A stretch of 64,000 nt of DNA from a virus, in the IMG/VR virus record IMGVR_UViG_3300024520_000047, positions 1 to 64,000 of that record. The stretch is one strand, 5' to 3'. Below are positions 5,366 to 27,368 of the stretch, in pieces (within the stretch, counting starts at the first letter, position 1; the number at the start of each line of letters is the position of its first letter). The notes below the pieces were generated by a model, which was given only the letters and a program-made list of their open reading frames with translations, searched no databases and had not been told where the DNA came from. Made by a program: the position numbers and the translations under genes.

Positions 5366-8300
5366 CTACTCTTCGTCCCATTCAATTTCGTCGGATTCTC
5401 TAGGCCAACTATAAGGAATATCGGTTCCCGGTCTAATATCCTGACTCCCATAAGAATCTTGTTGTCTTTTCCATGGATGTCCGGGGTCTCTATTAATAAC
5501 GGCATTCTCTAAACCAAATAATTTAGCTAATTCCTTCATTTCATCTTTTAGGGTATTAAATCTTTCTCTCCATGAAGTTTCATAAACCTTCCCATCTGGA
5601 TTAATATAATCCGAGTCTCTTCTATTATAGTCTTCAACTGCTTCAGGATGTAACTCTGCGAAGTCTTCCTCATACCTATAAAAGTCGGGCCATTTTGCAT
5701 GGTATCCTATATCTCTCATAGGTATTTCTTCCATGGAGTAAGGGTCATCCAACTTCCCCACTATATCATTCCCCCAATCATCATACTCCTCTTTTTTCTT
5801 ATAAAACTTTAAGATGTCCTTCCAAATATTATCCGCCGTTACACTATCGTCGAGTACTGGAACATAAACATCAATGCGTGCTTCGCCTGGCATATTCCCC
5901 GGCACCGTACTTAGATAATAATCAAACCCCAAAAAATTAAATGGAGAATTCTTCACCAAATAATTGTTCAATGCGGTCACTGGTTCCTGTGGTGTCGGGT
6001 CCACATTCATAGCATAATGTTGTTTACCTCTTCTAATGGACCATGGTGGTTCACCTTTGGGGTGGTCTAGTTCTTGCTTTTTGTTGTCTCTATTAAAGGG
6101 AAAATCCTGTTCATTCAATTCTTCTCTTCTAAAGGTGGGATTATAAATCCATGTATCAGTGGGGTATATTCTTTTCTCTCTTCCCATCCATTTGTTTACT
6201 GCTGTCCCAAACCTCTTATCTTCGTCGGTGAGGCCTATAGGTTCTATTTCATAATATTTTAAATCAGCATCAGGACCTTCCCAGTTTTCGGGTTGTCGAA
6301 ATTTAATAGCCGTAACCACATAAGGTTCATATAAGTCAGGTTTTCTTCCCCCTGTCGTATATTTTCTTCTCCACCCTATACTCTCTATTACCATTATCTC
6401 ATCTCCTATCATTAATTGTGGGTTTACTTTATCTTGAGATTGTTCATTTAATTCTTCTCCTCTAGAGTCTGGTCTTAACATCCATGTGTCGTTAGGATAA
6501 AGATGTGTCAATCTCCTCCATCCTCCACCCGCCCTTAAATCGGCTTGCATTTCTTCAGGGGTCAATTCTTTACGTTCTATTTCATAATGTACGTATTTGT
6601 CGTTAAAGGTATTGTTTTTTATTGATTCTTTGATTTTCACTACTACATAAGGGACATATATTTCTGGTGGGTTGAAACTTGCTCCTTCAGGTTGGTTGTG
6701 TTGAAGTACGAGTATCTCATCTCCTATCATTAATTGGGGATTAAGTTTATCTTTAGTATGTTCTTGTAATACTTCGGGGTCTTCTACTTTTACCCATTTA
6801 TCAAAATAGGGTGCAATCACTTTATAACCTACCCTTCTCCCTTCTGTGTATCTCAATAACTCGTCCTCATCTTTCTTATCCATTAACAACCATAATAGTT
6901 GGGTACCTTCATCTATGTCGAGACCAGACCCTTCATATCCTCTAGTCCAGCCATATCTGGGACTACCTCCACCTCTTCCCTCTGTACTCCACTTCATTTC
7001 CTCATTCTCATCTATTACAGTATAAGTGTGATATAACTTGGGGAATCTTTCAGAAGTAATAATCTGCATACCATTCATAAACTCCCGTCTTTGGTCACTA
7101 TCTTCATCTACATCTATAACCTTAATTTTATCACCCGGTTTTAAAGGAGGATTAACTTCTACTTTCTTACTATCTTGTTCTTGTAAAGATGGTGGTGTGG
7201 GGGACATAATGTACCTCACTTCATTAGGATACAACCAACGAAAATCGTACCCACCTTTTTTGTGTGACTTCTTCCACTTGTTAATTTCAGATAACGGTAA
7301 AAGAAGATATCTCTTCCCTCGTTCCTCCACTCTTTTTCCGTATGCCCGTTCCCTCCCGTGTTCCTCCGTTTCTGGCGTTTTTTGTATAATCCTATAAGGG
7401 ACGAATAAGTCTGGTTGTGTAGTATGGGTTTCTATGTCATCTCGATGGTACCAACCCCTTCCTTCGTGCCACTTAAACCCCATTAACTCTGCAGTCTCTT
7501 CATAATTATGCCAATCTCCTTGCAAGGTATCTTTGACTTCCTGATTCTCCATAAATTCCTTTATTTCGTCGTCCGTCATATATTCAACATCTGGGTCTTC
7601 ATATGCCACTACCGTTATCGTATCTCCCACATTTATGTAGGGATTAACTTTTTCTTGATGTTCTTGTAAAGATTTTGGGGTGGGGGGAGAAATGATGTAT
7701 TTTTCTTCCGAAGGGTACAGCCAACGATAATCTAATCCCTTCACTCGTCCAGAGGCCCATATCTCCCTCTTTTCGTCCTCATGTTCTTCCACTTCAGGTA
7801 GTGTTAAAAGAAGATATCTCATCACATCTCCTTCTTTCCATCCTATTTCTACTTTTTGTACAATCCTATAGGGTACGAATAAGTCTGGATTCTGGTCATT
7901 TAACTCCTTTTTATGATACCATCCCTTACCTGGCCATCGTGTATAGCCCATTAACTCTGCAGTCTCTTCAAAATTATGCCAATCTCCTTCCAATGTATCT
8001 TGGAGGTCCTGATTCTCCATAAATTCCTTTATTTCGTCGTCTGTCATATATTCAACATCTGGGTCTTCATGTGCAATTACAGTTACAGTGTCCCCTACAT
8101 CAATTGGGGGATTAACTTTTTCTTCCTGTTCTTGTAATATTTCTTCTTCCTTATTTACTATTATCCATTGGTAAGGGCCTGATGCCTTTAATTCTTCCTT
8201 TCCGTCCTTTTCCCACTCTTGCCTTCTCCCCCTCTTTCTTTCTTCTCTACTTATTCCATATCCCCATATATCTCCTTTTATTTCTCCTTTCCATGGGTCT

Positions 8301-11300
8301 CCTTGTATTCTCTTTCTTCCTGTTGGTGCCTCATTATTATATACTATATCCTCCACTACATAATTTACAAATAACTCTAACAATTCACCATCATTCAACA
8401 CATATCCATCATCATCCACTATCTGTTCATTCCTATTAGTCCAATAGGGTAGGACTTCACCAGATGCAGCGTTGTCTATAAGTTTTATTACATCCCCTAC
8501 CTTTAATGTAGGTCTACTTATCGGTTGGGATTCTTCATTTAAAATTTCTTCTTCCTCTCTTTTAAAACCAGGACGGAATATCCATTCATCTCCTACTTCA
8601 TAAATAATCTTAGTAGTCATTGTCCATAACCCCTTCCTTTTCCCTTTCTCATCCCAATTCTCCACTTCCCACCTTTCTTTCTCATCGTCCCAATAGGGAA
8701 ATCTACCACTCATAGGTTCAATGTGATAACTAAGTTTCCCTTTAGTGCGAGGTTCCCTAACTCTTTTTATTACCTTATAAGGTATAAAAGTCTCTGGTTC
8801 ATTCTCATGGGTACCATCTACATGTAAAACAATAATCTCATCTCCTTCTTCTAAGTCTGGACTAGGATTTTTTTGTCTTTCTTCCTGTAGGTGAGCAATG
8901 GATGGCTCGTACTTACCTATTTTTAACCACTTATGTCCATTTACTATCATATCCTGATGTAAATTGGCATCGTTAAAGTCTACAAGTAAATCGAGCCTCA
9001 TTACTACATACCCATATACTTGTCTCTTATCCCAGCCTTTATCCCCCTCACCTGTCACTATCCATCCTTCAGCACTTCCATCGTGCCATAATGGGGTTAA
9101 CACCACATACTCATCCCATAAGTTAAGATAACTATCCTTGTCTGTCTTCTCTATTATTTTAATCATATCTCCCGGTTCCAATGGGGGACTAATCTCTCGT
9201 TCCTCTTGTTCTTGTAATACATCACCCCTCAATTTACGTTTGGCGTTGTCTTTGTACTTCGCTCTTTCTTCATCAGATAATTCTACCTTTAACCATTGGT
9301 GGTCACGGTCACGACTTAAGACTTTTAAGTGACGATGGAGGTGACCTGGTAATCCTGGTGTGTCTTGGAACTTTTCCAAATACCCACTCTGTTGTAATTT
9401 ATACAGGTCCTCTATGGTAATAACAATATAATCTCCTTCTTTTTTTGGGGTCCCATATGAAGGATGCCATACCCAATACAATGCAAATGGTGTGGGCGTA
9501 CCGAAAGGCGTTTGTTCTTTTCTTTCTGGTATATCTATAGGTCGTATGATGTCTCCAGATTTTAAAACAGGACTCACTTCTTCTTCCCTTTGTTCCCGTA
9601 ATGTTTTCTTAATATCTTTATTTGTATCAGTTTTTACAATTTCTTTGAACTTATCCAAATAAACTATTCTATCCGAATCTACATTTATTAATTGAGTATT
9701 TGGGGTTAGGTATTTATCTTTAACTTTAATATAGTATACACCATCATCCTTTATACCCAAATCACTTATGAAACCATCAATATAATTTTCATCGTCTATG
9801 CTCTGAGACAATAACCCCTTTAACCCATTCTTAGTTAATTCAGTTGATGGGTCACCTTTGTTTTCATCAGGTTTTTCTTTTGTTGCCTCATACTTCTCTA
9901 AGTATTGGTCTAGTGCTTTAGTGGGCTCTCTCCAATCGGGGTCTTCTTTACCTACTTCATTTCTACCCACTATATTATTGATGAGCATATAGATGGGTGC
10001 ATGTAAAAGTATATTATGCTTAATATTTGGAACGTACTTCAAAATATCATTAGTGACATCATCAAAAATTACCTTATTCCACTTTCCAGTCTTAAACTCT
10101 TGTGCCATATACCAAGCAGCAGCGTTTGCATTAGGACCACCAACATACTCATTTTCTTTTGGGTTTGGTGGTACATCTTCGCCAGCTTTCCTATAGAGTC
10201 CAGATGTTATTCCAAAATCATGACCCTTTGCCCAATCCCTAATACTTGGTGGGTCAAACGCTAATCTTCTTTCTTCATTTTCAGGAGTGTAACCATTGAA
10301 ATCATCTGATGCAATAATAACCCATTGATTAGGGTCTGTAGCTTTATGAAAAGGTACCGCTTTTAATTCCTTACTTACCCATGATTTACCAGCAGATGAT
10401 GTTCCATCTATTAATATAGTAGATTTATCACTTAATCCTTGTTCTCTTTGTTCCCGTAATGTTTTCTTAATATCTACCCCATGCTTAGGTCCCAATGGTG
10501 GGTCCAATAAAAACTTCTGGTTAAGATAATCTCTTAACAAATTTTCCACAAACCAATCTGGAACTGGTTCATCATCTGGTTGGGCTGCAGCAACATCTGC
10601 AACATATCGTGCAAATTTAAGTTTGTATTTATCCCTAATCATTTCCAGTAATCCATCCGAGACAAAGAAAATTTTACTCAAGGGGTCATCACCCAATGCA
10701 ACATCAGGAATGTAATCCCCTTCAGCAATGTCCATGGCTTTGAGTACTACCTTCCCCCACCATCGTTTATATCCTTTGGTATCTTTAAGTGCTGGAGTAA
10801 CAATTTTATTTAATGCTCGGGTAGCGGTAATCCCCACCGCCGCAAATAAAACCTGAGGTAAAAAGAAAGGAATAATTCTCCATAATGATTTAAAAACCCC
10901 TCTACCGATATCGCTTGCTATTCTTTTATTGGTAGCTGCTTCCACCAATGCTTTAAGTTGACCAAAGGTAATAGGTCCTTGTGCTTTACAAAATCCTTTT
11001 ACATTACAAATATTTTCGGTTACGTCTCTTGATGGTGCAACAAAGCCTGATTCTGGGTCTGTCTCACTTCCTTCATATTCGTACTCATCTTCATAATCAG
11101 TTTCTTCATCGTCATCGGGAATCTCAATTTTTGCTACGTCTTCTTCCCATTCTTCTTCAGTATCATATGGTTGTAACTCTATTGGTTCTAATAGGCCTTG
11201 ACCAAACATATCGGCTGCTTCATGGATGTACTCCTTGGGTGGGAAGTGGTCTGGTCTAGTAGCGCCCTTTACGGTTACATAATTAACCCCTATACCTGTT

Positions 11301-14300
11301 GCATTTAAAAGGTCTGTTATATTCTCCTCTAAAACCTCCACTATCTCTTGTCGTACTTCCTCTTTCAACGCTTCATCTGGTTCATCACTAACGCGATTAG
11401 CACGTGTAAGGTCATCCTCTGACTCGTCCCGTACACTTCTACGTAAACCACATGTTCTACATTCTTCTTCATAGTCACCATCTGACCACCACTGGTGGTC
11501 ATGAAAAATGTCCCACAAAGTATAAGTGTCGTGTCCACCCAAAGCTAAATTGGCCATTCCACCACCATCTACTATTACAAATACCCCTATCTCATCCTCA
11601 ACACTCCACCCTCGTTCTTTCCGGACTTTCTTTTGGTCTACATTCCATGGTAGTTCTTTCTCATCAATAGAAGTAACTACATACTTAAAATCATATCCAC
11701 CATCCCAAACCTCCTGTATTCCTTTTAATTTTTCCTGAGCGACTTCGATGGCTTTCTCTCTCCCTCCATGCCATTCAACCAACCACTCATCTATTATCTT
11801 ATAAAGTCCTCTTTCTTTACGGGTATCTAATCCTAATAATTTAAGTATATGTGGGTCATTATGTGGTCCTTTATTATCCCAATAGTTAAAAAGTGATTCC
11901 TTAAAATGTGCATATATTTTTTTTAGCTGGTTGGGCGATTTCGCTGGGTTAATATTTGGAAAATCGGAGTCTTCATTAAACAACATTTTTTTATGCTCTT
12001 CTTCCTCTAATAATCCTTTAGTCAATGTTCTTTTTTTATCTTCATCAAGTCGGTCATTTTTTCCTGACGCCGTTATCTTACCTGCGTTACGTTTTTCTCT
12101 CCAAAAATTATCTACAACTATTTGGGCTTCATGCCATGTCAAACCCGCGATGTGGGTAATACTTCGTATTGCATCCGTGAACTGTCCTTCTCCAAAAGGA
12201 TAGTATTCATTAGGAACCACCGTAGGGAATTGGGTATCTAACCACTCATAAGCATTTTTAATATGTTCTTCCTTAGATAGGATATCCTCCAACAAGAGAT
12301 TTTGTACCCACTTAATGACAGTGGAATGCAAACTCATTCTTCCAAAAGGAGAACGGTCCCAGGGAATGTACCCATCTCCAGTATAGTCCCAGACATTAGA
12401 TTGACCTGTCCATTGGGGTATCCGCCTATTACTATATAAGATAAATTGAACTTCCTTTAGGAACTGTTTAATACTCGCATCACTAACTCCTCCCACCAGT
12501 TTTTCTCCATGTTCCTTTCCTAGAGTATAGAGGTTATATAATTTTAAAAATTTATCTTTGTAGTTATCATTTAAAAATTGAGTAATCTCTTCGTCAGTAC
12601 GTCTAGAAGAAGTGGATTCGGCTAAACCTTGATAGGTAACATCACTTATCTCACTATCTATTATCTCGTGTTCCCCGTAATCATAGGTATCCACTTCACC
12701 GTTCCAATCATAAAATTCATCACGACCTCTCTCATATGCATCATCTTCATCGAACGCCATAATCTCAACACTTCCTCTTCTATATTCAGTTTGGTCCACC
12801 GTTTCCTCATAGTCGACATTATACCATTTGGGTAACTCTTTGAAGGGAGCTTTTATTTTACTATAATCCCCTAAGTCTTCCGCGAAATCCCAATTATCAG
12901 AGGCCCATTTCGCATACTTGGAGGCGTCCACTCTCTGTTCCATCCCACGTGTACCGGGGCTGGTTTTGATACCAAATAATTTCATTAGGTCTACCCATCG
13001 TTTGGCTAACTGGTTACCCCCATAAGCAAAAGTATTAGTAGAAATATGGGATAACTCATTTCTGGTAAAGGTGGATTTAAGTGTATTTAATATTTTACTC
13101 TCTACGGGAGTAAAGGCACTTCTGTCCATTCCTTCTGCTTCTTCATCGGTCCAACTATCCTTATTTCTATCTTGTTCGGTAAGGGGTTGTTCTTTAATAA
13201 GTTTCTTAATCTCTTCTGCCAATCCTTTATACTCTGCACTGGTGGTCTCATGCTCAAATCTTTCAGAATCTCCATAATCATCTACATCAGTGTTACCACC
13301 CCAATCAAAGAATTCCCTGTTTCCTTTATTCAAGGCATCGTCTTCATCAAAGGCAATTAAATCTACATCTCCGCTTTTAAATTCTACTTGACTTACCGTT
13401 TCTTCATAATTTACATTATACCATTTGGGTAAGACTTTAATTGGTTTGGTTACCTTGGAATAATCCATTTCCCCATCCTCTCCTCTAATCTCCTCATCCC
13501 AATTGTCTAATGCCCATTTTGCGTATTTGGATGCTTCAGCTTTCGGTTCCATCTCTCCCCATCCCTCAGGCATCGTATGCCCGAATAACTTCATAGCATC
13601 TTTCCACCTCTTACCTATATTACCAGAATAAGGATATAAATCCGTACTTGTAGTTATTTGAATCAAGTCCTCTTTAGTAAAATTCTTTGCCAGAAAATTT
13701 AAAATAGCAATTTCTTTTTTGGTGAAAGGACTGTATGAAATGCCTTCGTCTTCTTCTTCCCATTGGTCATCTTCATGAACCTGTTCCTGCAGGGAAGTAC
13801 TTTCTTTACGTAGACTAAATGCTGTGGGGTCGGTTAAATTAGGCTCTTGTGGTTCGGGAATTTCTACATACCCACCAAATCCAACGAAAGCATCGGGTCT
13901 GTATTGTTGTGCAATATTTTCTAACCATTCATTTAATACATAAGGAACTGGTAATAAAACAGCATCTCTATTCCATTCTTTTCTATAATCTATTAATCCC
14001 AACTTAGTTAAACGATGGTCAAACTGAGTTAACTCGTGGTCAAATCCATCATACGGTGAACCGTGAGCATAAATCTCCTCATAGTCATCAGGGTCTTCTA
14101 TTCTTCCTGCCGCAATCTCCTCTGCTATTCCTTTGTAGAAAGATTCCAACTCTTCCAGATGGTTCTTGACGAATTTCTCCACTTCCGATTTTTCATGTCG
14201 GTCTAAATAGTGAATAAAAGTTTCTACAGGTACCTCCAATGCACGGTTGTTAGGTTCTGGGTTATGTTCGGGAGAATTTCTAAAGGATTGTGAATTGGGT

Positions 14301-14485
14301 TCTCTAGTAGGGAGGAGAGGTACCATTCCCTTCATGTGTTCCTTAAGGGTTGTTTTTGTTGGAGAATAGGTACGGTGGGGAAATAAGGGACCTATACTGT
14401 CTTCATATAAATGTAACTTTTTTCTTAAGTCAGTACCCATAAGACCTTGGTCTAATGCATCTTTTATTTCACTTAGTGTCGGCAT
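5366..14485 (-). CDS. Giant modular virion protein / candidate packaged polyprotein, 3039 aa
   Basis: Opens MPTLSEIKD (L-x-E). Two copies of an unknown FTxxE...MKLFG...SKYAKWA...DWGG domain lie at about 250-425 and 455-630. A Cys motif (CRTCGL) lies near 1010 and acidic stretches follow at 1080-1140. A membrane-like segment (IIPFFLPQVLFAAVGITA) is at about 1205. A P-loop kinase-like module with Walker A GTSSAGKS is at about 1355-1365, like chloramphenicol phosphotransferase-type kinases. Nine SH3-like repeats run from about 1635 to 2790 (pattern NPPLxxGDxIxVID, a Y.V strand, final W-I strand). A C-terminal domain follows. Nearly every module is preceded by LREQ, LQEQ, LQEE, LNEE, LQEH or LNEQ, matching the (L/I)-x-E site of T4-type prohead proteases. 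I infer a structural or internal head protein cut during maturation. No promoter seen; start abuts the M23 gene's stop. Confidence 0.85.
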   Translation of the reverse strand: MPTLSEIKDALDQGLMGTDLRKKLHLYEDSIGPLFPHRTYSPTKTTLKEHMKGMVPLLPTREPNSQSFRNSPEHNPEPNNRALEVPVETFIHYLDRHEKSEVEKFVKNHLEELESFYKGIAEEIAAGRIEDPDDYEEIYAHGSPYDGFDHELTQFDHRLTKLGLIDYRKEWNRDAVLLPVPYVLNEWLENIAQQYRPDAFVGFGGYVEIPEPQEPNLTDPTAFSLRKESTSLQEQVHEDDQWEEEDEGISYSPFTKKEIAILNFLAKNFTKEDLIQITTSTDLYPYSGNIGKRWKDAMKLFGHTMPEGWGEMEPKAEASKYAKWALDNWDEEIRGEDGEMDYSKVTKPIKVLPKWYNVNYEETVSQVEFKSGDVDLIAFDEDDALNKGNREFFDWGGNTDVDDYGDSERFEHETTSAEYKGLAEEIKKLIKEQPLTEQDRNKDSWTDEEAEGMDRSAFTPVESKILNTLKSTFTRNELSHISTNTFAYGGNQLAKRWVDLMKLFGIKTSPGTRGMEQRVDASKYAKWASDNWDFAEDLGDYSKIKAPFKELPKWYNVDYEETVDQTEYRRGSVEIMAFDEDDAYERGRDEFYDWNGEVDTYDYGEHEIIDSEISDVTYQGLAESTSSRRTDEEITQFLNDNYKDKFLKLYNLYTLGKEHGEKLVGGVSDASIKQFLKEVQFILYSNRRIPQWTGQSNVWDYTGDGYIPWDRSPFGRMSLHSTVIKWVQNLLLEDILSKEEHIKNAYEWLDTQFPTVVPNEYYPFGEGQFTDAIRSITHIAGLTWHEAQIVVDNFWREKRNAGKITASGKNDRLDEDKKRTLTKGLLEEEEHKKMLFNEDSDFPNINPAKSPNQLKKIYAHFKESLFNYWDNKGPHNDPHILKLLGLDTRKERGLYKIIDEWLVEWHGGREKAIEVAQEKLKGIQEVWDGGYDFKYVVTSIDEKELPWNVDQKKVRKERGWSVEDEIGVFVIVDGGGMANLALGGHDTYTLWDIFHDHQWWSDGDYEEECRTCGLRRSVRDESEDDLTRANRVSDEPDEALKEEVRQEIVEVLEENITDLLNATGIGVNYVTVKGATRPDHFPPKEYIHEAADMFGQGLLEPIELQPYDTEEEWEEDVAKIEIPDDDEETDYEDEYEYEGSETDPESGFVAPSRDVTENICNVKGFCKAQGPITFGQLKALVEAATNKRIASDIGRGVFKSLWRIIPFFLPQVLFAAVGITATRALNKIVTPALKDTKGYKRWWGKVVLKAMDIAEGDYIPDVALGDDPLSKIFFVSDGLLEMIRDKYKLKFARYVADVAAAQPDDEPVPDWFVENLLRDYLNQKFLLDPPLGPKHGVDIKKTLREQREQGLSDKSTILIDGTSSAGKSWVSKELKAVPFHKATDPNQWVIIASDDFNGYTPENEERRLAFDPPSIRDWAKGHDFGITSGLYRKAGEDVPPNPKENEYVGGPNANAAAWYMAQEFKTGKWNKVIFDDVTNDILKYVPNIKHNILLHAPIYMLINNIVGRNEVGKEDPDWREPTKALDQYLEKYEATKEKPDENKGDPSTELTKNGLKGLLSQSIDDENYIDGFISDLGIKDDGVYYIKVKDKYLTPNTQLINVDSDRIVYLDKFKEIVKTDTNKDIKKTLREQREEEVSPVLKSGDIIRPIDIPERKEQTPFGTPTPFALYWVWHPSYGTPKKEGDYIVITIEDLYKLQQSGYLEKFQDTPGLPGHLHRHLKVLSRDRDHQWLKVELSDEERAKYKDNAKRKLRGDVLQEQEEREISPPLEPGDMIKIIEKTDKDSYLNLWDEYVVLTPLWHDGSAEGWIVTGEGDKGWDKRQVYGYVVMRLDLLVDFNDANLHQDMIVNGHKWLKIGKYEPSIAHLQEERQKNPSPDLEEGDEIIVLHVDGTHENEPETFIPYKVIKRVREPRTKGKLSYHIEPMSGRFPYWDDEKERWEVENWDEKGKRKGLWTMTTKIIYEVGDEWIFRPGFKREEEEILNEESQPISRPTLKVGDVIKLIDNAASGEVLPYWTNRNEQIVDDDGYVLNDGELLELFVNYVVEDIVYNNEAPTGRKRIQGDPWKGEIKGDIWGYGISREERKRGRRQEWEKDGKEELKASGPYQWIIVNKEEEILQEQEEKVNPPIDVGDTVTVIAHEDPDVEYMTDDEIKEFMENQDLQDTLEGDWHNFEETAELMGYTRWPGKGWYHKKELNDQNPDLFVPYRIVQKVEIGWKEGDVMRYLLLTLPEVEEHEDEKREIWASGRVKGLDYRWLYPSEEKYIISPPTPKSLQEHQEKVNPYINVGDTITVVAYEDPDVEYMTDDEIKEFMENQEVKDTLQGDWHNYEETAELMGFKWHEGRGWYHRDDIETHTTQPDLFVPYRIIQKTPETEEHGRERAYGKRVEERGKRYLLLPLSEINKWKKSHKKGGYDFRWLYPNEVRYIMSPTPPSLQEQDSKKVEVNPPLKPGDKIKVIDVDEDSDQRREFMNGMQIITSERFPKLYHTYTVIDENEEMKWSTEGRGGGSPRYGWTRGYEGSGLDIDEGTQLLWLLMDKKDEDELLRYTEGRRVGYKVIAPYFDKWVKVEDPEVLQEHTKDKLNPQLMIGDEILVLQHNQPEGASFNPPEIYVPYVVVKIKESIKNNTFNDKYVHYEIERKELTPEEMQADLRAGGGWRRLTHLYPNDTWMLRPDSRGEELNEQSQDKVNPQLMIGDEIMVIESIGWRRKYTTGGRKPDLYEPYVVTAIKFRQPENWEGPDADLKYYEIEPIGLTDEDKRFGTAVNKWMGREKRIYPTDTWIYNPTFRREELNEQDFPFNRDNKKQELDHPKGEPPWSIRRGKQHYAMNVDPTPQEPVTALNNYLVKNSPFNFLGFDYYLSTVPGNMPGEARIDVYVPVLDDSVTADNIWKDILKFYKKKEEYDDWGNDIVGKLDDPYSMEEIPMRDIGYHAKWPDFYRYEEDFAELHPEAVEDYNRRDSDYINPDGKVYETSWRERFNTLKDEMKELAKLFGLENAVINRDPGHPWKRQQDSYGSQDIRPGTDIPYSWPRESDEIEWDEE
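7200..8120 (-). repeat. Recent tandem duplication of one SH3-like module
   Basis: Modules 5 and 6 of the giant protein are near-identical over long runs: EDPDVEYMTDDEIKEFMENQ occurs in both, then GDWHN(F/Y)EETAELMG and QPDLFVPYRI-type strands. The unit is about 155 codons. The other seven modules are far more diverged, so this copy arose recently. Confidence 0.75.
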
Positions 14486-15807
14486 TAAGAAGTATATTTA
14501 TCTAATGCCTCTTGTGCTTGACGGCCTCTTTTATTTTGGTTTACTCTACTTTGATTACTGGGTCTTTCAAAATTTACCATAAAAGAAGCGCCCGCATCTG
14601 ATGCATTGGTCGTTGTTAATAAAGCATTATATGCTTTTTTCTCTTTTCCTTGGAGTTCACTCCATAAATATTCTAATTGTGCGTCGGGGTCGGTAATAGG
14701 TTTTTGTTGTTTTTTCGCAAAGTCATTTAATCTATATAGTCTAGTGTCATGCCATTGTGCGAGCCCCATAGACGTTCCTCTGTCTCCAATAGTACCCGTC
14801 TTAAAATTAGACTCAGATTTCATATTACCCGCAATTCCCGCCGCTTGTTCGGGGGTCAAACCTTTATTAATAAAAAATTTAATGACGTGATTAGAATCTA
14901 TTTGTTGATTACCGGGGTATTTTTTCCCTTTCAAAGGTAATATAAAATTAGCGTCAGGTTCTATTACACCTTTTCTTTCTAATTTTTGTACTGTAGTGGG
15001 GTCATTTATCTCGGGATTGAGATTAATTTTCTTGGGGTCTTTCATCGCTCCCAACACATCAGGGGTTATCATATCAGTAATCTTAAAACCATAATCTTTC
15101 TGAAATGCATTCACCGCTGCTAAAGTTTCGGGACCAAATTTCCCATCTATGCCAAACTTAGGTAATATATAATTTCTCGCAATTAAATCTATTTGCATTT
15201 CTTTTACCTTATCCCTAACATTCCTTCTTCCCCTTCTCATTCCATCTGATAAAGTAAGATTACCTTGTGGTATATTTTGAATTTCTATTTTTTCTTTTGG
15301 TTTTCTTCCTATTCTTTTAATAGTTACACCATCTAAGTAAGGTACAGGGTCAGTAGTAGAACTCCCTTTAGCTTTATCATACACTTCATAATGTAGATGT
15401 GCTCCAGTAGATGAACCGGGACAGTAGTCTCTTTTTCCTCCTCCAGATAATCCAATAACTTGTCCTTTACTTACCGATTCACCTTTGTTAACCCGGATAT
15501 CTTTAATGTGACAATAACGTGTTTTCAATCCTGCACCATGGTCAATGTATATATTACCACCACACGCCCCCTTGGTACATTGAGCTTTAATAATCACACC
15601 ATCTGCTGGGGATAATACTTCGGTTCCACTTTTTGCGTTAATATCTACCCCATGGTGTTGTCTCGTTTTTTTAGTAATGGGATGCACTCTTATACCATAG
15701 GGACTGCTAATTTTAAGACGGCCAGCCAATGGTGGCCCTAAACTAACTTCTACCTCTTCATTTAATAGAATTCTATTTAATTGTTTTTCAGTTATTAATA
15801 TTTTCAT
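14485..15807 (-). CDS. Packaged peptidoglycan hydrolase: M23 peptidase + PG-binding + tail lysozyme, 440 aa
   Basis: N terminus MKILITEKQLNRILLNE carries two L/I-x-E sites, like a capsid-targeting propeptide. Residues about 30-155 are an M23 zinc endopeptidase (VHPITKKTRQHHGVD with H51/D55, and HLHYE near 140). About 195-255 is a peptidoglycan-binding-like domain (FGIDGKFGPETLAAVNAFQKDYG). About 305-435 is a phage tail-lysozyme domain (LTPEQAAGIAGNMKSESNF, GTSMGLAQWHDTR). It cuts cross-links and glycan chains, most likely at entry, as a virion component. Its stop overlaps the start of the giant protein gene. Confidence 0.9.
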   Translation of the reverse strand: MKILITEKQLNRILLNEEVEVSLGPPLAGRLKISSPYGIRVHPITKKTRQHHGVDINAKSGTEVLSPADGVIIKAQCTKGACGGNIYIDHGAGLKTRYCHIKDIRVNKGESVSKGQVIGLSGGGKRDYCPGSSTGAHLHYEVYDKAKGSSTTDPVPYLDGVTIKRIGRKPKEKIEIQNIPQGNLTLSDGMRRGRRNVRDKVKEMQIDLIARNYILPKFGIDGKFGPETLAAVNAFQKDYGFKITDMITPDVLGAMKDPKKINLNPEINDPTTVQKLERKGVIEPDANFILPLKGKKYPGNQQIDSNHVIKFFINKGLTPEQAAGIAGNMKSESNFKTGTIGDRGTSMGLAQWHDTRLYRLNDFAKKQQKPITDPDAQLEYLWSELQGKEKKAYNALLTTTNASDAGASFMVNFERPSNQSRVNQNKRGRQAQEALDKYTS

Positions 15808-15817
15808 CTATTTTTTT

Positions 15818-17125: not shown

Positions 17126-17129
17126 TATA

Positions 17130-17137: not shown

Positions 17138-17163
17138 CTATTCAATACAAGAATAGTGAAGTG

Positions 17164-17721: not shown

Positions 17722-17736
17722 TTTTATTTTCTTATT

Positions 17737-18626: not shown

Positions 18627-18663
18627 AATTTGTGTTTTTTTAATTTATTAATCTTTATGTTGG

Positions 18664-18876: not shown

Positions 18877-18902
18877 TCTTCTTTTTTAGAATTAATTTAA
18901 AT

Positions 18903-18989: not shown

Positions 18990-19062
18990 AGCGGAAGGAT
19001 AGGATTTGAACCTCCGTCCCCATACTGGTAGTATGGTGCTTTACCAATTAAGCTACTCCCGC
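18990..19062 (-). tRNA. tRNA-Gly-like gene, anticodon ACC (atypical)
   Basis: Acceptor GCGGGAG pairs with CTTCCGC (one G-U); T73 fits glycine identity. D-arm TAGCTTAATTGGTAAAGCA. Anticodon stem CCATA/TATGG with loop CTACCAG gives anticodon ACC, hence Gly (GGU). T-loop TTCAAAT is normal, but the T-stem GGAGG/CCTATC needs a bulged A. No CCA is encoded. Bacterial Gly tRNAs normally have GCC, UCC or CCC, so ACC is odd. The 5' end lies 4 nt after the stop of the 80-aa gene, so it is cotranscribed. Confidence 0.75.
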
Positions 19063-19066
19063 TTAT

Positions 19067-19309
19067 TTAATGATGTGTGACAGTCCATGTTCTATAGGTA
19101 CTATCCTGAAAATCGGTATATGTTTTCATGGCCTGAAGAATATCCACCGCATCAATACCTAATAATTTTATAGCATCTTTCTCACTAAGTCCATACTTCT
19201 GTATAATCGAAAATTTCTTTTCTCCGATTTGAGTTCGAAGGAAATGCATCGTCTGGTCCCAATGAAGGAATGCCCCCGTGTAAACACTATCTCTATTTTC
19301 ATTTTTCAT
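19067..19309 (-). CDS. Small KLLGI-motif protein, 80 aa
   Basis: Contains KYGLSEKDAIKLLGIDAVDI near residue 45, the short helical motif that recurs in the giant virion proteins and other small ORFs here. The remainder is helical. A Bacteroidota promoter ends 4 nt before its ATG, so the mRNA should be leaderless. The tRNA follows in the same transcript. Confidence 0.75.
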   Translation of the reverse strand: MKNENRDSVYTGAFLHWDQTMHFLRTQIGEKKFSIIQKYGLSEKDAIKLLGIDAVDILQAMKTYTDFQDSTYRTWTVTHH

Positions 19310-19313
19310 AAGG

Positions 19314-19344
19314 CAAAGATAAGAAAAAAATATTAATAAACAAA
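19314..19344 (-). promoter_or_regulatory. Early-type leaderless promoter
   Basis: Minus strand TTTG (19341-19344), 19-bp spacer, TATCTTTG (19314-19321), then CCTT and ATG. Exact match to TTTG/TAnnTTTG, with the start codon where +1 is expected. Confidence 0.75.
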
Positions 19345-19430
19345 ATTTAAATTGATAAAATATTAATGGGGTAATTTATTTATTCCCCCTAATTTTATCT
19401 TATTATAAGAGTAGATAATAGTTCTTCTTA

Positions 19431-20000
19431 ATGAATCCCAACCGTATAAAATCTATCCGCCGCACCTATATTATATTTTCTATAATAGTAGGAATTGTTG
19501 CTCCTATTTTATGCTATTGGTTAATTCCTCATTTTGACATAAAACACGACCCTTTATCTAAATTTGGTATCTCCGAACCCACTTCCCATATCTGGTTAGT
19601 CTCATTAATGTTTATTGCCATTGGATTATGGTTAAATGGGGAATATCGGATTGGGGAAATGATTAAGAAAAAAAAATGGCGTCCTTTATTGAAGTGGTTA
19701 CTGAGAATTTCTACTTTTTCATTATTATTAATGGCAGTAATAGATATGAGTTGGCACTGGACACATAAAACTTTAGCTTTACTTTTTTTCTGTGGATATA
19801 ATGTTTTTGTGTTTGCCTTTGGTATTGTGCGTTCTTTAACTTATGTTAGAAGAGGAATGTTTTCAGTAATAATGGCTACGCTTATGTTATCCACATCTTT
19901 ATTAATTCTTCCATTTCCAAGTTATGGTGTTGCTGAAATATCATATATATTTCTGATAGTGCTGTGGAACACTAAAGTCTTATTTAGGAAAAAATTATAA
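19431..20000 (+). CDS. Multi-span membrane protein, DUF998-like, 189 aa
   Basis: About six membrane segments: YIIFSIIVGIVAPILCYWLI, IWLVSLMFIAIGLWL, a pair around 75-125, then FSVIMATLMLSTSLLILPF and ISYIFLIVLWN. The DPLSKFGISEP loop after the first helix is typical of DUF998. Role in the phage unknown; membrane remodelling or superinfection exclusion are guesses. It is isolated on the plus strand and its end overlaps the end of the giant gene by 6 nt. Confidence 0.75.
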   Translation: MNPNRIKSIRRTYIIFSIIVGIVAPILCYWLIPHFDIKHDPLSKFGISEPTSHIWLVSLMFIAIGLWLNGEYRIGEMIKKKKWRPLLKWLLRISTFSLLLMAVIDMSWHWTHKTLALLFFCGYNVFVFAFGIVRSLTYVRRGMFSVIMATLMLSTSLLILPFPSYGVAEISYIFLIVLWNTKVLFRKKL

Positions 20001-23000
20001 GGTTTCTTTCCATAAATTTATTAATCGGTTAGCAGTTGGTATTATGTTGCGTTTGGCTTCTCTAAGAGTTACTTCTTTATTTTTATTTTTAAGAGAATGG
20101 ATGGTGGTATCCCAGATAAGGTTTTTAATTTTATCACCATCTTCACTTAAGAGTCCACTATCCTTTTTTAATACAGTAGAATAGGTATCAATCCAGTCTT
20201 TTCCACCAATTAAAAAGTGGGAATAAAAATTCTCATTTGTCATCTCTTTATTTTTAACTTCACTTAAAAAATCAAAAATTAGTTTTCTTTTTTCAACTAG
20301 TTGGGCTGTGGTTACGTGTTGGGAACGTACTTTAATAAAAGCAGTTAAATCCATTTTATCAAACGACTCAAAGAACCTCCTTTTTATTAAAAAATCCTTT
20401 TGGGCTGCTTGTAAATGTCTGTTAACCTCTTCTGTCATATCTCCACGCAACTTTCCTCCCATTGTAAGGGTGTAGTCCGACTTTTTCTCAAAGTCTCTTA
20501 AATCGAAGATATTAATTGTATCTCCAATTTGAAATGGGATATTACTTAGGTTACCACTCTTTGCAATATCAACTATTTTCCCAGTTGGTGTCATATAAAG
20601 TAAAAAGGTCTGAGAGTTTTTACCCCAACCACCTTTGTATTCAAATCTTCCAATGATTAATAATCGTCTAATATAATTAGGAATGTTAGGTCTTTCTTCT
20701 TCTGGTAATTGTGGAATAATGGCTTCCGTTAACGGAGTGTTCCTGATGATAATCCATTTATCTCTCCCTCCTCCATCATCAGCATAATAATCATAGTCTT
20801 CTACTCCTTGATATAATCCCAAGTGTCCATCGTAAGTATCTATCTCGTATTTAATTCCTCCTCTAAACATATCACCTCTCGGTTCTTCGGATGCATTGCC
20901 TTCATATACATGTACCACGATTCCTACAGTAGTATTGGGTATCGTCAGTGTTGTAGTTCCGGGAGGTGCGGGGTCCATTTCTAAGTCCCAAATAAAAATT
21001 TTATCTCCTACTTTAAGTGGTGGACTTATTTCCTCTTTGGGTATTTTGGTGGTATCGATTTTTTGTTCCTTTAAAGTATTGAAATGATAGGCATCCGTAA
21101 TCTCCCAATCATCCGATTCATAATCTCCATGCTCATAGGTATGCATTTCTCCGCCCCACCCATAAAAATCTTCCCTCGATTTCTCTTCCGCATCCGTTGC
21201 TCCAAACGCGGTGACGTTTGCGCTACCCCTTTTAAATACTTGTTCCCAACCACTTTCTTCTGCCTCTACTTCATATTCGGAGGGGTATTCTTTTCTTGCA
21301 TTTTTAATTTGTCCATAATCTCCATCGTCTGCTTCGTGTCTATTCTCTAGTGCCCAGCGTGCATATTTGCTTATTATTGTCCAGATTTGAGCACTTCCCT
21401 CTCCACTGTTGGGTTCACCAAATAGTTTCATTACATCCTCATATCTAGAAGTAACTTGCCGTTGTATATCAGTTTTAAAAGTTCTGGTGGCAATTGCTTT
21501 TAATTCATCGAACGTAAATTCTCTAACAATAGTATTTAATATTTTAACTTCGAGTGCGGTAAAAGGACCATACTCTACATATAAGTCATCATCCTCTAAT
21601 CCACTCTCGGCATCTTGTTCGTTCAATCTTCTGGATGTAATATTCTTGCCACTAGCATCAATTTCTTTTTGTCGTGCCTCTATCTCTTGGGGTATATTGG
21701 ATACATGTTTTTTCACCATAATCCACTTATCGTTAGTCGTAAGGATTCTATTTCCCCTATCCCATTCAATATTTTCTCCTGTTATTGGTAACATGTTCCA
21801 ATACAAATTACGGAAGGTGGGTTCATTTCCAAAAGTTATTTGTTCTGTATTCACGGGTTCGGGAGAAGTAACATAATAAGTCTCCATGATAGTAGGAAAA
21901 GTATCTTCCCCATGTAATTCACCTCTACTTCGCGTTCTATACATGCCAGAACCTGCAGATTGTTTATATCTGGTATCTTTATCTACATCTACCACTCTAA
22001 TAACGTCTCCAATATTTAAAGATGGATTAAGTTTTTCTTTCTGTTCAGTAATCGGTTTTTTATGAACCTTAATCCATTGGTATATCCAAGGGTATAATAG
22101 TTTTGCGGTACCTCTACCTACCATATAGTCCCCATTTAAATAATCTTGATGTTTGTCTGCTGGAAGAAGTGTATATCTCCAAGGCCACTGTGCTTTGTGC
22201 CCAGCAGACTCTTTTTCTACTACTATGTATGGTGTTAATATCTCAGGTCTTTCCGCTTCTCCTCGCCCTTTCATCCTCTCCCTCTCCCTGTCTATATCTA
22301 TTACTCGTATACTATCACCCACTTCTAACTCTGGACTTAATTGGGTTTCTTTTTGTTCTCTTAAAATATATGGTGTGTCACCACCCCATATTTCTACTTC
22401 CTTGCCTACCCCTTTATCATTTCCTTCCCACTCGCCTGTCAGTGCAACCAATTCCATGTTGTCTATCCTCTCTATTATTTGACGTGCCCAAGCTTTTACA
22501 ACAGGGTTGGGGGTTAATCCTCTTAAACGATTATAAGATATGAAATCTCTTTCATCTGGTGGACCAATATTCGTAGTATCAATTAATCCTAATTTATATA
22601 AATCTTCATTGATGGTACCCCATAAATCATATAATTCCATTTGAGCCGTTTCAATTTTATCCGCCAAAAGGCCTATCTCACCTCTTCCTCCTTCTCCTCC
22701 ACCGAATCCACCGTATTTAAAATTTCTTACTCCACCTTCAGTATATGAGTCCTCATAACTGGTGAGTAAAAGTTTAGCTGCTAGAGCTAATTTCTTATAT
22801 ATTCTGAAAACCTCTTGTGTATAATTCTGGTGTAAAAACTTCTTTAGGGGTAAATTCTCACTCTGTTCTTTTATGGTTTCCCGATGTGTAGTACTTTCTA
22901 TCTCCCACCCATCAGATTCCCAATCTCCATAATCATAGGTCTCCATCTCACCACCCCAGTCGTACCAATCAGCTGTAGCCCTATCAGTCACATCCTGTGA

Positions 23001-26000
23001 ACTAAATCCGGGTATATCAACAGAACCGTGTTTGAATATTTTTTCCCATCCGCTTTCTTCCGCCTCTACTTCAAAGTAAGAGGGATAAATTTTAACTGGA
23101 GTTTTAACCTGTGCATAATCTCTTTTTTCATCGACCTCACCTGCAGCTTCACCCCAGTTATCCACCGCCCATCTTGCATATTTGCTCGCTATTACCCAAT
23201 CCTCCATGGTACGAGCGGGTATCGAAAATAATTTCATTATATCATTATATCTCTCTTCTAAGGCACGGGGTAAATTAGCGGCATCACTCTCCCCAATCAT
23301 CTCTAAGTCCTCTGAGGTAAACTCTTGGGCTAACTTATTCAATAACTTGACTTCCATGTTGGTGAAGGGAGTAAAGTCATAGTATTGGTCGTCATCATAG
23401 AATCCTTTATCTTTACCAAATTCCATTTTTTCTTCGTCTAACTGTAAACCTCCACGGTCTATCTTGCTCAATGCATCTAAATTCCCAAAGGAAGGATGGT
23501 CGGTTATCTTATCTTTTTTACTTTGTCTCATTACATCCCATACTCTAGGCTTCATCTTCATGTGATTACTCACCATATACCCTATCTCTTCTGGGTCACC
23601 ACCTAAACTCTCAATGAATTCACTATACTCATTCACTAACTGGGTGGAAACTTTTTCATGACCATGTGCGGTAGGTTGTCCTGTTTTAGGATTTACACCT
23701 AATGTGGCTAACTTACCTAGGTCATGAAAATATGCTGACAAAATTAAATTTATATTCTCAGGTTGTTCAGCAAACGCTCGGTTGGTTACCGTAATAATAT
23801 GTTTAAGTACATTTCCTTCTGGATGCCATTCAGGATTTTGTTTGGCCTTCCATTGGTCCATTAATATTTGTTGTAATGGTCTGGGTGAAGCATTGTATAA
23901 TTCTTTAAAGTTAGTCACTGATTCCCCTAATAAATCGATGTCATCATCCCACATCCCTTTATTTTTCTCCACCAGAATCCATGTATCGGTGTCGGGCATT
24001 AGATATCTCATGATTGCCTTATTTGAAAGAACACCGGGGCGGTCGGGGTAAGACACATCTTTCATGGGTCTATTAATACCATACCAATATTGGTCCCGCT
24101 TGGGTGTAGTGGTAACCCTATAAGGGACAAACAGTTCAGGAACTTGGTCGGGTATTTCTCCTTCTTTATCTTTAACATCTATTACTATTATCTCATCTCC
24201 ACTTTCTAAGGGTGGGTTTACTTTTTGTTGGTCTATGTTCTCGGTGAGACTTGCTGGGTCTGTAGGTTTTGGTGGGCCGAAATTTCCCTCATCATCTTTT
24301 GCCGATGGTTCTTTACTTTGAGGGACCAATTCATACAAGTCATCATATAAGATGTCATTAAAATATTCTTCACTAATATCTGGGTACCAATAACCATCAA
24401 AGTATTTTCCATCTACCTCTAAGTGGTCTCCCCGTTTACCCTCATTATAGTCATCTCCTCGTCCAAACTCTTCTATCATAATCTCCCCAAAAAGTTGGTC
24501 TGGAGTAAGACGTGCCATGTCTCTCATTACATCTTCCAAAGGTCGACTAGCATAATCTTCATGAAACTGAAAGAAATCTGTATTATCCCAATCGTCATCA
24601 CTTATCCACCTTTTTAAGTCACTTTCTATTATCCACGAATAACTTCCATTATTATTATCTCTTACCCATTTTCCTGTTCCGTCGAACCAGTCCTCTATCT
24701 TATCCCGAATATCGTCAAAGATGGCACGTTTGGTTGCATCTTCCTGTTCTATACTATAGGCGCGGGTAATCTTATTTCTAATTTCATCTATCTCACTCTC
24801 TTTTTCGGCAGCAATATCATCCTCAAAATCATTGTCTACATGACCCTCCAATAGTCTGCCGGCCACTTCTTTATCTTTAATCCCAAGAATTTCCATAATC
24901 ATTTTCCAACTTCCATCATCGAGATTATCTAACATCCCCTCATAAAATTCGTTATGGTCATACCATCCATCCCAATCCCATGCGTCCTCACCACACAGAT
25001 ATTTCCGTATGAGTTCTTCATGATTGTCATCATCAAATAATCGAGCTAAATCATCACAATCCCATAATGATGTTACCGGAATGGGTGCTTGAGTATTCAT
25101 TATGTATCTTTTGAGTAACATGGTGACACCATCTCCTTGGATGCCTTGCATCCCTAACAGTTTAAGGTCTTCCCAACTTACCCCATCTTGGTCCCATTTT
25201 TTATAAAGATATTTAACTGCATTTTCAGGATAATCTTTCATTATCCATTCTTTGTCTTCATCTTCCATTACTGAATCAAAAGGCCATCCTCCATGAAATA
25301 AATCTAATTGTTGTTCTTCTTTAATAACTTCTACCGAAGTAGTATCGTTGAGGGTATCTCTGTCTGGATAAAGAGCATCATTAAGGAGTTCTAAGTGATA
25401 TTCCACCTCCGCATCGTGGTCTGCCCAATTAATAACCATACCCTCTTCATCAAAATCAAAATCACCTTCTAATTGGTACTCGGTGGTATCATAATATTGA
25501 CTCATTAATTCTACTGTCTCCTCATTTGCGTTCACGGTATCAGTTAACTCATCAATGGTATTAAGATATTCCAGTTCTACAGTACTCAAATATTCTGCTT
25601 GTAACTCTTCATAATAATACTGGTCTACATATTTATCTTCCATTTGGTCACAGTCACACTTTCCTTCATCTTTTTCATCCTCCGTACATTCCCTATACTC
25701 ATCTTTTTCATCATCATAAAACTCAGTCCACTGTATACATTCACAGTCCTCCTCACTTAATTCACCATAAAAATGACCCCCACTTTGGAGACACTCTTCT
25801 AATATTTCTTCTGACTCAGCCTCTTCAGCATAAAACTCTACAGTATAGTAATAGATATTCGGTAGAGGTTCCCATAATAAATTCGTTATATTCCAATCAC
25901 TAAAGCCCCCACCTTCTTTAATTATCAACCATAAGGTCGCAGCTATCTGTTTTCCATCACTACTACTAAAAATTCCCCCCACATCTAGATATTTCCGTAA

Positions 26001-27368
26001 AGTATTGTAAAAACTATCGAAGTGGTATAAACTTTCATTTAAACGATGAGCGGTTCTTATTAGAGAAATTATCTTTGGGGTTATCTCTCCCCCATCATTG
26101 TGAAATTCGTATTCTTCCTTTAAATATCTTTTAGGTGTGGTGTCTTTGGAATAAACCCATGTATAATTGCCGGGATACAAACTTTTGGGGTCTACATTTA
26201 ATTCGTAAAGAGTATCTAAAGTTATGTCATCCCAATTTTCAATTTTAATCCTTTCCTTCCCTACATCCTCATATTCTGTGGGGGTAAGAAGAGTATAGTA
26301 GGTGTTACGGTTTTCATCGACACTTACATTAACCACCATATAAGGGGTAAGTAATTCTGGTACGTCTTGCCACTCGATATCATCATCTCTATTATACCAT
26401 CCCATCTGACCTGCGTCCCACCTATATCCAGCATTCGCAGCGAGTTCCTCTAGACCACCACCTACTACATAACCCTGTGTTTCTAATACATCAGTTAGTT
26501 CTTCATCCGACAGGTAATGACTACGAAACCCTTTACGGTCAATAACCACTATCTTATCCCCTACTTCTAGTTTAGGGTTATGTCTCCATAATTGGTGTTG
26601 GTTTCTAATATTTTCTTCCTTTAGGGTTGGTGGTAGGGGGTCATTCGTTCCTAGGTCCAATAAAGCGTAATGACCATTCTTCATTCCCAAATTACTAATT
26701 CCTATATCCAACCATCGTCTTCCAGTTGCTTCAATTTCTTTACGAATATTAACAATGTCGTCATACACTTGTCGGCATTCGGGAGACCCATCTACTGGTG
26801 GGTGAATAAGAGCTTTTCCTGTAGGGTCCGAATAAAAATCTACATAAATAGGATTGTCTTCTCTACAACAACATCTAGTGAACATCTTTTCTTCAGGTGT
26901 GGTTGGGTGGGTTAGGAGTTCTAAAACAATAATATACGCTTGACTACTATCTGATGTATAATAAGGAGTCTTAAAAGGGGCGGTAGCAAATACATTTGCT
27001 ACATATTCATTTTGTTTACCTTTTAAACTTTGTGCTTGACGGTGTTCAGCTTCATCTCCAGTAATTTTAATTACTTTATCATCATCAAGAAGTGCAGCAA
27101 TACCATTTCCACCACTAATAATATCAATAACGTCACCTAAATTATTATCAGTAATGTAATCCTTTAAAACCTTCTTAGGGTCAGCACTAAATTTAACTTT
27201 TCCGTGTTCAGCGTCTATTATATATTCTTCCGTATCCGGTACATCAATAGACTGATAAATGTCTTTACGTAACTCAGGGTCATTTCTAAAAGACTGGTCT
27301 ATCGCAACCTGTAATCCCGGGTCTAATTGTTTGGGTGATTCTTGTAATATATTAGGAGATTGTCTCAT
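19995..27368 (-). CDS. Giant modular virion protein / candidate packaged polyprotein with kinase-like N-terminal module, 2457 aa
   Basis: N terminus MRQSPNILQE ends at a likely L-x-E cut. Residues 11-250 form a protein-kinase-fold module: Gly-rich loop near 85-92, VIK with Lys101, LDIGISNLGMKNGH with Asp221/Asn226 as catalytic loop, and LLDLG with Asp238 at the DFG position. Next come an SH3-like repeat (about 264), acidic and Cys-rich regions, repeat 2 (about 1054), and an HD hydrolase (AYFHDLGK near 1209, with HGHEK and NHMKM). Then FT-type domain 1 (about 1333-1496), SH3-like repeats 3 and 4 (1681, 1782), FT-type domain 2 (1931-2100), and repeats 5 and 6 (2116, 2282). Linkers TLKEE, SLTEN, IKEQ, ILREQ, PITEQ and TLKEQ bracket the modules. 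It shares this grammar with the 3039-aa protein. A TATTTATG box sits 4 nt before the ATG. Confidence 0.85.
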   Translation of the reverse strand: MRQSPNILQESPKQLDPGLQVAIDQSFRNDPELRKDIYQSIDVPDTEEYIIDAEHGKVKFSADPKKVLKDYITDNNLGDVIDIISGGNGIAALLDDDKVIKITGDEAEHRQAQSLKGKQNEYVANVFATAPFKTPYYTSDSSQAYIIVLELLTHPTTPEEKMFTRCCCREDNPIYVDFYSDPTGKALIHPPVDGSPECRQVYDDIVNIRKEIEATGRRWLDIGISNLGMKNGHYALLDLGTNDPLPPTLKEENIRNQHQLWRHNPKLEVGDKIVVIDRKGFRSHYLSDEELTDVLETQGYVVGGGLEELAANAGYRWDAGQMGWYNRDDDIEWQDVPELLTPYMVVNVSVDENRNTYYTLLTPTEYEDVGKERIKIENWDDITLDTLYELNVDPKSLYPGNYTWVYSKDTTPKRYLKEEYEFHNDGGEITPKIISLIRTAHRLNESLYHFDSFYNTLRKYLDVGGIFSSSDGKQIAATLWLIIKEGGGFSDWNITNLLWEPLPNIYYYTVEFYAEEAESEEILEECLQSGGHFYGELSEEDCECIQWTEFYDDEKDEYRECTEDEKDEGKCDCDQMEDKYVDQYYYEELQAEYLSTVELEYLNTIDELTDTVNANEETVELMSQYYDTTEYQLEGDFDFDEEGMVINWADHDAEVEYHLELLNDALYPDRDTLNDTTSVEVIKEEQQLDLFHGGWPFDSVMEDEDKEWIMKDYPENAVKYLYKKWDQDGVSWEDLKLLGMQGIQGDGVTMLLKRYIMNTQAPIPVTSLWDCDDLARLFDDDNHEELIRKYLCGEDAWDWDGWYDHNEFYEGMLDNLDDGSWKMIMEILGIKDKEVAGRLLEGHVDNDFEDDIAAEKESEIDEIRNKITRAYSIEQEDATKRAIFDDIRDKIEDWFDGTGKWVRDNNNGSYSWIIESDLKRWISDDDWDNTDFFQFHEDYASRPLEDVMRDMARLTPDQLFGEIMIEEFGRGDDYNEGKRGDHLEVDGKYFDGYWYPDISEEYFNDILYDDLYELVPQSKEPSAKDDEGNFGPPKPTDPASLTENIDQQKVNPPLESGDEIIVIDVKDKEGEIPDQVPELFVPYRVTTTPKRDQYWYGINRPMKDVSYPDRPGVLSNKAIMRYLMPDTDTWILVEKNKGMWDDDIDLLGESVTNFKELYNASPRPLQQILMDQWKAKQNPEWHPEGNVLKHIITVTNRAFAEQPENINLILSAYFHDLGKLATLGVNPKTGQPTAHGHEKVSTQLVNEYSEFIESLGGDPEEIGYMVSNHMKMKPRVWDVMRQSKKDKITDHPSFGNLDALSKIDRGGLQLDEEKMEFGKDKGFYDDDQYYDFTPFTNMEVKLLNKLAQEFTSEDLEMIGESDAANLPRALEERYNDIMKLFSIPARTMEDWVIASKYARWAVDNWGEAAGEVDEKRDYAQVKTPVKIYPSYFEVEAEESGWEKIFKHGSVDIPGFSSQDVTDRATADWYDWGGEMETYDYGDWESDGWEIESTTHRETIKEQSENLPLKKFLHQNYTQEVFRIYKKLALAAKLLLTSYEDSYTEGGVRNFKYGGFGGGEGGRGEIGLLADKIETAQMELYDLWGTINEDLYKLGLIDTTNIGPPDERDFISYNRLRGLTPNPVVKAWARQIIERIDNMELVALTGEWEGNDKGVGKEVEIWGGDTPYILREQKETQLSPELEVGDSIRVIDIDRERERMKGRGEAERPEILTPYIVVEKESAGHKAQWPWRYTLLPADKHQDYLNGDYMVGRGTAKLLYPWIYQWIKVHKKPITEQKEKLNPSLNIGDVIRVVDVDKDTRYKQSAGSGMYRTRSRGELHGEDTFPTIMETYYVTSPEPVNTEQITFGNEPTFRNLYWNMLPITGENIEWDRGNRILTTNDKWIMVKKHVSNIPQEIEARQKEIDASGKNITSRRLNEQDAESGLEDDDLYVEYGPFTALEVKILNTIVREFTFDELKAIATRTFKTDIQRQVTSRYEDVMKLFGEPNSGEGSAQIWTIISKYARWALENRHEADDGDYGQIKNARKEYPSEYEVEAEESGWEQVFKRGSANVTAFGATDAEEKSREDFYGWGGEMHTYEHGDYESDDWEITDAYHFNTLKEQKIDTTKIPKEEISPPLKVGDKIFIWDLEMDPAPPGTTTLTIPNTTVGIVVHVYEGNASEEPRGDMFRGGIKYEIDTYDGHLGLYQGVEDYDYYADDGGGRDKWIIIRNTPLTEAIIPQLPEEERPNIPNYIRRLLIIGRFEYKGGWGKNSQTFLLYMTPTGKIVDIAKSGNLSNIPFQIGDTINIFDLRDFEKKSDYTLTMGGKLRGDMTEEVNRHLQAAQKDFLIKRRFFESFDKMDLTAFIKVRSQHVTTAQLVEKRKLIFDFLSEVKNKEMTNENFYSHFLIGGKDWIDTYSTVLKKDSGLLSEDGDKIKNLIWDTTIHSLKNKNKEVTLREAKRNIIPTANRLINLWKETL

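Follow-up and report, generated by a model that had tools for sequence, protein, structure and literature searches.

Two giant phage proteins with prohead-protease-type sites at their module joints are probable head-targeted polyproteins

A large T4-like phage, represented by the 245,874-bp virus record IMGVR_UViG_3300024520_000047, encodes two giant proteins that are strings of modules, and the question raised by this locus is whether each string works as one long chain or is a precursor cut into many small head proteins. The window, which is the whole stretch of DNA analyzed here, comprises bases 1–64,000 of the record. Both giants are present in it at the coordinates and lengths originally predicted.

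5366..14485, minus strand: P0001, a 3039-aa module string and polyprotein candidate; single ORF, ATG to stop; 17 inferred joints after residues 49, 234, 437, 623, 836, 1089, 1345, 1631, 1759, 1868, 1984, 2119, 2275, 2436, 2575, 2681 and 2792
19995..27368, minus strand: P0002, a 2457-aa module string and polyprotein candidate; single ORF, ATG to stop; 13 inferred joints after residues 10, 251, 418, 684, 1043, 1149, 1312, 1501, 1671, 1775, 1917, 2101 and 2215

A lone tRNA-Gly (acc) gene lies between the two at 18991–19063.

P0001 contains about 17 modules and P0002 about 13. After its leader and N-terminal module, P0001 has two FT modules, two unassigned modules, the hydrophobic module A, the P-loop module and a run of nine SH3-like modules, and it ends in a C-terminal module. 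In P0002 a 10-residue leader precedes, in this order, one kinase-like and one SH3-like module, two long modules without a recognized kind, another SH3-like module and an HD module; after the HD module come an FT module, an unrecognized module, two SH3-like modules, an FT module, an SH3-like module and a C-terminal module. The individual modules are as follows, with an arrow marking the candidate cut after the motif.

14339..14485, minus strand: N-terminal leader of P0001 with LYE28 and LKE49, putatively for targeting
12617..13783, minus strand: FT modules 1 and 2 of P0001, the second beginning LTE↓QDRNKDSW
10451..11218, minus strand: module A of P0001 (GPITFGQL; hydrophobic), bounded by IHE↓A and LRE↓Q
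9593..10450, minus strand: P-loop (GTSSAGKS) kinase-like module of P0001, between two copies of DIKKTLRE↓QRE
6110..9592, minus strand: nine tandem SH3-like modules of P0001, with [LI]xE at every joint; small beta-barrel model
5369..6109, minus strand: C-terminal module of P0001 (QHYAMNVD), beginning LNE↓QDFPFN
27339..27368, minus strand: N-terminal propeptide of P0002, MRQSPNILQE↓S
26616..27338, minus strand: kinase-like module of P0002, by sequence pattern only
23433..23921, minus strand: HD-domain module of P0002 (PF01966, E 4.8e-4, just under the Pfam cut-off; phrog_6931, E 2e-6)
22866..23432, minus strand: FT module 3, in P0002
21066..21617, minus strand: FT module 4, in P0002

The module inventory of the original prediction stands for the four FT modules (two in each protein), the HD module and the P-loop; its SH3-like count of about 15 becomes 14, and its kinase-like module is recognized by eye only. 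An AlphaFold model of an SH3-like module gives a small beta barrel (pLDDT 79) with weak chromo-barrel, Tudor and SH3 matches, and its confidence is lowest at the last residues, which fits the expectation for an exposed linker. The FT module returned no PDB match in a fold search, the P-loop module no match to Pfam or, by sequence search, to the PDB, and the kinase-like module no PDB match by sequence search. Weak Pfam matches to DED, Catalase and CFAP91 were taken as chance. Used as a query, P0002 found no close relatives among viral contigs and, among phages, HD-type matches only; the second part of P0001 found no match among phages. Each chain combines several distinct effector-like domains (HD, P-loop, SH3-like, FT and others), which is the criterion for a polyvalent protein, and relatives of the strings add PAP2 and nucleotidyltransferase domains. 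Known polyvalent effector domains (ART, MuF, DdrB-ParB and the like) gave no Pfam matches in either protein at E 0.1.

The claim that nearly every junction carries [LI]xE is borne out. All linkers quoted in the original prediction (LREQ, LQEQ, LNEQ, LQEH, ITEQ and LKEQ) are found, and [LI]xEQ occurs 10 times in P0001, where shuffles average 1.4 (7-fold; 0 of 2000 shuffles reach 10), and 5 times in P0002, where they average 1.2 (4-fold; p = 0.0065), with these sites located at module joints; elsewhere in the genome the rate is 1.5 per 3000 aa. Total counts of plain [LI]xE are not enriched over shuffles (53 versus 45 in P0001, 40 versus 37 in P0002), and the signal therefore lies in the position of the motif and in the residue that follows it. 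Because the modules had first been cut at the motif, the joint test was repeated in a motif-blind manner, using the conserved NPxLxxGDxI anchor of the SH3-like modules in five proteins and scoring [LI]xE within 15 aa upstream. The motif is present at 22 of 25 joints (background 0.20, binomial p about 5e-13), and at 11 of the 12 in the window's own proteins; the control motifs LxD, [LI]Ex, LxS, [VA]xE and [FY]xE are found at none of the 25, and LxK at 3. Less clean joints in P0001 and P0002 are FNE836, LGE1149 and LDE1312. Across 1,059 homology-start boundaries from about 1,080 ORFs of the loci, the density of [LI]xE is 54 per 1000 at the boundary and about 13 away from it, related sequences in the set inflating these counts, and LxD, LxK and LxQ are flat with no peak. 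What defines a polyprotein at the sequence level, specific protease sites between functional units, is found in both proteins, as sites and not as cleavage itself.

The original prediction called for locating the prohead protease outside the window, and one of T4 type is encoded there, in the same record.

213471-214181: prohead protease, Peptidase_S77 (T4 gp21 family), PF03420, E 3.6e-24, above the cut-off

It sits in a T4-like head gene order of portal-like gene, prohead protease, scaffold and capsid protein, where portal, scaffold and capsid were assigned by position, sequence character and this order, and the capsid also by its relatives. Seven aligned capsid protein sequences share a conserved N-terminal LINE↓A or LVTE↓A, and the capsid protein would be cut at LINE↓A, which occupies the place of FLTE↓A in T4 gp23. 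The scaffold has two LNEQ sites (ESLNEQ and QSLNEQ). Since both the capsid and scaffold sites are of the form [LI]xE, the protease motif derived from the head genes agrees with the joints of P0001 and P0002. Of the 24 records that carry the modules, many of them fragments, 16 have S77; the L025 and L026 records, which may also be fragments, gave no S77 match. The L039 record (G007, 268,739 bases) has two S77 proteases and two capsid genes, at about 31–34 kb and 233–236 kb, reflecting either two head sets or a chimeric assembly.

Propeptide-like N-termini ending in this motif are also found on stand-alone genes of the same phage.

14485..15807, minus strand: M23/PG-binding/tail-lysozyme protein (Pfam), propeptide-like N-terminus MKILITEKQLNRILLNE↓E
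15818..17125, minus strand: stand-alone module gene, propeptide-like N-terminus MEINLKNIIQE↓Q, with a homologous stretch inside the L024 giant
48736..49317, plus strand: phage lysozyme (PF00959, E 2.9e-20), CTS-like N-terminus MKLMDQLSYLIE↓D
49333..49860, plus strand: protein without assigned function, CTS-like N-terminus MKLLKHLSNIISE↓Y
54399..55541, minus strand: protein without assigned function, CTS-like N-terminus MRLITQLSILVE↓D

The two peptidoglycan hydrolases among them (14485–15807 and 48736–49317) hint at head-packaged lysozymes. Over the phage's whole genome the excess of N-terminal [LI]xE is modest (1.6x). Two leader types, LxEQINRIxEMMGxxxE and KLxDILxE, recur in the relatives L017, L037 and L035 and in this genome (73349–74557, 152115–152777), and could become search profiles for packaged proteins. 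A TATTTAT-type motif, possibly a late promoter, lies close upstream of many head and propeptide genes (15818–17125, 48736, 49333, 54399–55541 and others). Upstream ATTTAT is found for 14 of 24 chosen genes versus 62 of 211, a modest enrichment (p 0.006–0.011) on a hand-picked gene list, and we therefore left the motif out as evidence.

The modules of P0001 and P0002 recur in other phages as separate genes or in different orders, and the point at which the context changes falls at [LI]xE, which ends either a T4-like N-terminal propeptide or an internal linker. The P-loop module, which has [LI]xE at both ends inside P0001, is a separate gene in L012, L014–L017 and others, with unrelated N-termini that mostly end in [LI]xE: KILNE↓DS (L012), GLLTE↓QT (L014), WRLYE↓SV (L015 and L016) and DILKE↓IA (L019), with NILFKE↓DT of L017 as a near match only. 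Relatives of the FT modules led to four more giants, L024 (3602 aa), L025 (2007), L026 (938) and L027 (1319), which have other module orders and [LI]xE at most joints. The FT boundary is the same in two contexts, being an N-terminal propeptide in L025 (NIQE↓QDRNEDSW) and internal in P0001 (PLTE↓QDRNKDSW). Module A has different neighbors in P0001, L024, L025 and L026 and [LI]xE at both ends in all four, the C-terminal NLQE of L026 lying one residue beyond the alignment cut. The kinase-like module is N-terminal in P0002 (ILQE↓S) and internal in L027 (IIE↓N), and the C-terminal module starts after LNE in both P0001 (LNE↓QDFPFN) and L025 (LNE↓QQFPFN).

A further module, D (DPKKGTGKKPKGSGRRLYTDE), connects L013, where it stands alone (KITE↓G), with L025, where it is internal (LNE↓S). 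In the contigs found with module D (51 distinct after thinning, related sequences among them inflating the counts), about two thirds have L/I/V/M at −4, and about two thirds E at −2, N-terminal and internal alike, and [LI]xE falls in the last 8 aa before the module in 16 of 19 N-terminal and 18 of 29 internal cases, against an internal background of 5%. The strings around it contain nucleotidyltransferase-like modules by Pfam, and HAD-like and HExxH modules by eye.

In L013, L017, L037 and L082 a whole propeptide recurs inside one protein, between modules, which is the trace that fusion of two propeptide-bearing genes leaves; the start Met is kept in L082 and L017, and in L013 the P-loop module is the first of two modules, each preceded by KIKLTEEQYRKLVLE↓N. 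Most stand-alone homologs have an N-terminal leader ending in the protease motif, as does P0002, and the leader of P0001 is less clear. The strings of L024, L045, L072 and immuto gp088 lack a clear N-terminal propeptide, so that either targeting differs there or the model is incomplete; the IMG/VR records of relatives may be fragments.

Similar arrangements are found in cultured and very large phages. In Flavobacterium phage immuto, gp088 is a 907-aa string with joints LLE↓Q, LAE↓A, LPE↓G and MAE↓G that lies near terminase and gp20, in a genome that encodes S77. The cultured cyanophage S-SRM01 also has S77, and its cytidyltransferase starts MKNFHQFITE↓A, close to the T4 IPIII leader. In the 635–735 kb phages LR756501, LR756502 and LR745206 (L134–L136), module A has a gene of its own, whose CTS-like N-terminus reads MDYMKSYKDKLNE↓E, MKNIIKYNHFLILE↓K or NTIKKYDEFLIQE↓K, and S77 matches are weak, below the cut-off. 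HTVC033P, a single case, has no S77 match and a D-like protein that starts MAKKREPKKGTGK, without a leader.

Taken together, P0001 and P0002 are probably effector polyproteins targeted to the head, which arose when genes with their own propeptides fused and which the prohead protease still cuts; the comparisons with other phages lend this reading strong support. While the parts and the sites are firm, packaging and cutting of the two proteins are likely, as judged from sequence. The two chains would be precursors of many small internal head proteins, each chain being brought into the prohead core by its N-terminal capsid-targeting propeptide. There the S77 protease, while processing the scaffold and capsid protein, would also cut the chain after [LI]xE at flexible joints, freeing some 17 and 13 mature modules, among them SH3-like, FT, P-loop, HD and membrane-like ones. 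These would remain in the head and go into the host along with the DNA, where they may act as effectors. The strings would have arisen by fusion of genes each bearing its own propeptide, with mostly the cleavage core alone retained inside them.

The original prediction had offered packaged precursors or relics of fused genes, and both ideas gain support. Module ends retain [LI]xE in linkers that have otherwise diverged, which suggests continued selection, and complete propeptides are embedded between modules in relatives; the two ideas are not mutually exclusive. It is unlikely, however, that the [LI]xE cores are only scars of fusion in long proteins that now work uncut. The fusions visible in four relatives would suit this reading, as would the P0001 and P0002 linkers, most of which no longer have the propeptide's amphipathic part, but the motif is kept at SH3-like joints whose linkers are otherwise divergent and on either side of module A in all four of its contexts. 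Neutral scars should moreover decay to LxD, LxK and the like, and such variants do not accumulate at the joints. Less probable again are intact polyvalent proteins, that is, injected or cytoplasmic multidomain effectors unprocessed at these sites, with [LI]xE as a linker preference. Polyvalent proteins with 2–15 domains have been described, and the prevailing view is that they mostly act intact (PMC5512222), but the same sites end the leaders of stand-alone genes and equal the capsid cleavage site, and a linker preference would not pick L/I at P3 plus E at P1 while excluding LxD. That one linker was copied many times by tandem duplication, with the other matches due to chance, is highly improbable, as the sites likewise flank the FT, P-loop, A and C-terminal modules, and unrelated proteins from many phages have them too, although fourteen modules are SH3-like repeats and part of the repetition is therefore by descent.

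Beyond this phage, we lean towards a widespread class of aquatic phages that make injected effectors as capsid polyproteins, in which the capsid maturation protease doubles as polyprotein protease and genes join the virion load by fusing to the string at an [LI]xE joint. If this is true, DNA phages use a polyprotein strategy, with processing inside the capsid, to bring many proteins into the host, and a large multidomain phage protein should be taken for a set of separate ones. In uncultured phages the [LI]xE boundary would serve as a sequence-readable tag of virion-packaged effectors, many "hypothetical" proteins included, and would define mature effector ends for structure work. CTS, S77 protease, injected effectors and multidomain polyvalent proteins are already known; the literature searched, with subscription papers outside its scope, contained no multi-product capsid or head precursor and no phage polyprotein.

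The proposed arrangement resembles RNA virus polyproteins in that a single chain has specific viral protease sites separating functional units; however, there is no relation, and here only accessory proteins would be released, by a capsid maturation enzyme. Closer to phages, polyvalent proteins are long effector strings of 2–15 domains for which packaging and injection have been predicted (Iyer et al. 2017; PMC5512222), and these large proteins of many effector-like domains are not described as cut by a prohead protease at each domain joint. SPN3US and phiKZ (gp245-type protease) likewise have large genomes and many packaged proteins matured by a prohead protease. In those phages, however, the motif is AxE rather than [LI]xE, and in SPN3US cleavage after it removes end propeptides, at N-termini and at the protease's own C-terminus (PMC10052503), with multi-product precursors not reported. 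The nearest likeness is to the T4 internal proteins and Alt (CTS, gp21, Peptidase_S77), with which this phage shares short leaders ending in [LI]xE, T4-like head genes, S77 and a matching capsid site. T4 internal proteins have a 10-residue CTS in which residues 8 and 10 govern processing, and in IPIII an E-to-D change stops processing but leaves targeting intact (PMC9026906); Alt is cut at both ends, at ITE-6 and LTE-619 (PMC5694885). Cleavage in known S77-type systems either takes off end propeptides or shreds the scaffold, and each T4 precursor gives one mature protein, whereas here a precursor would yield about 13–17 products.
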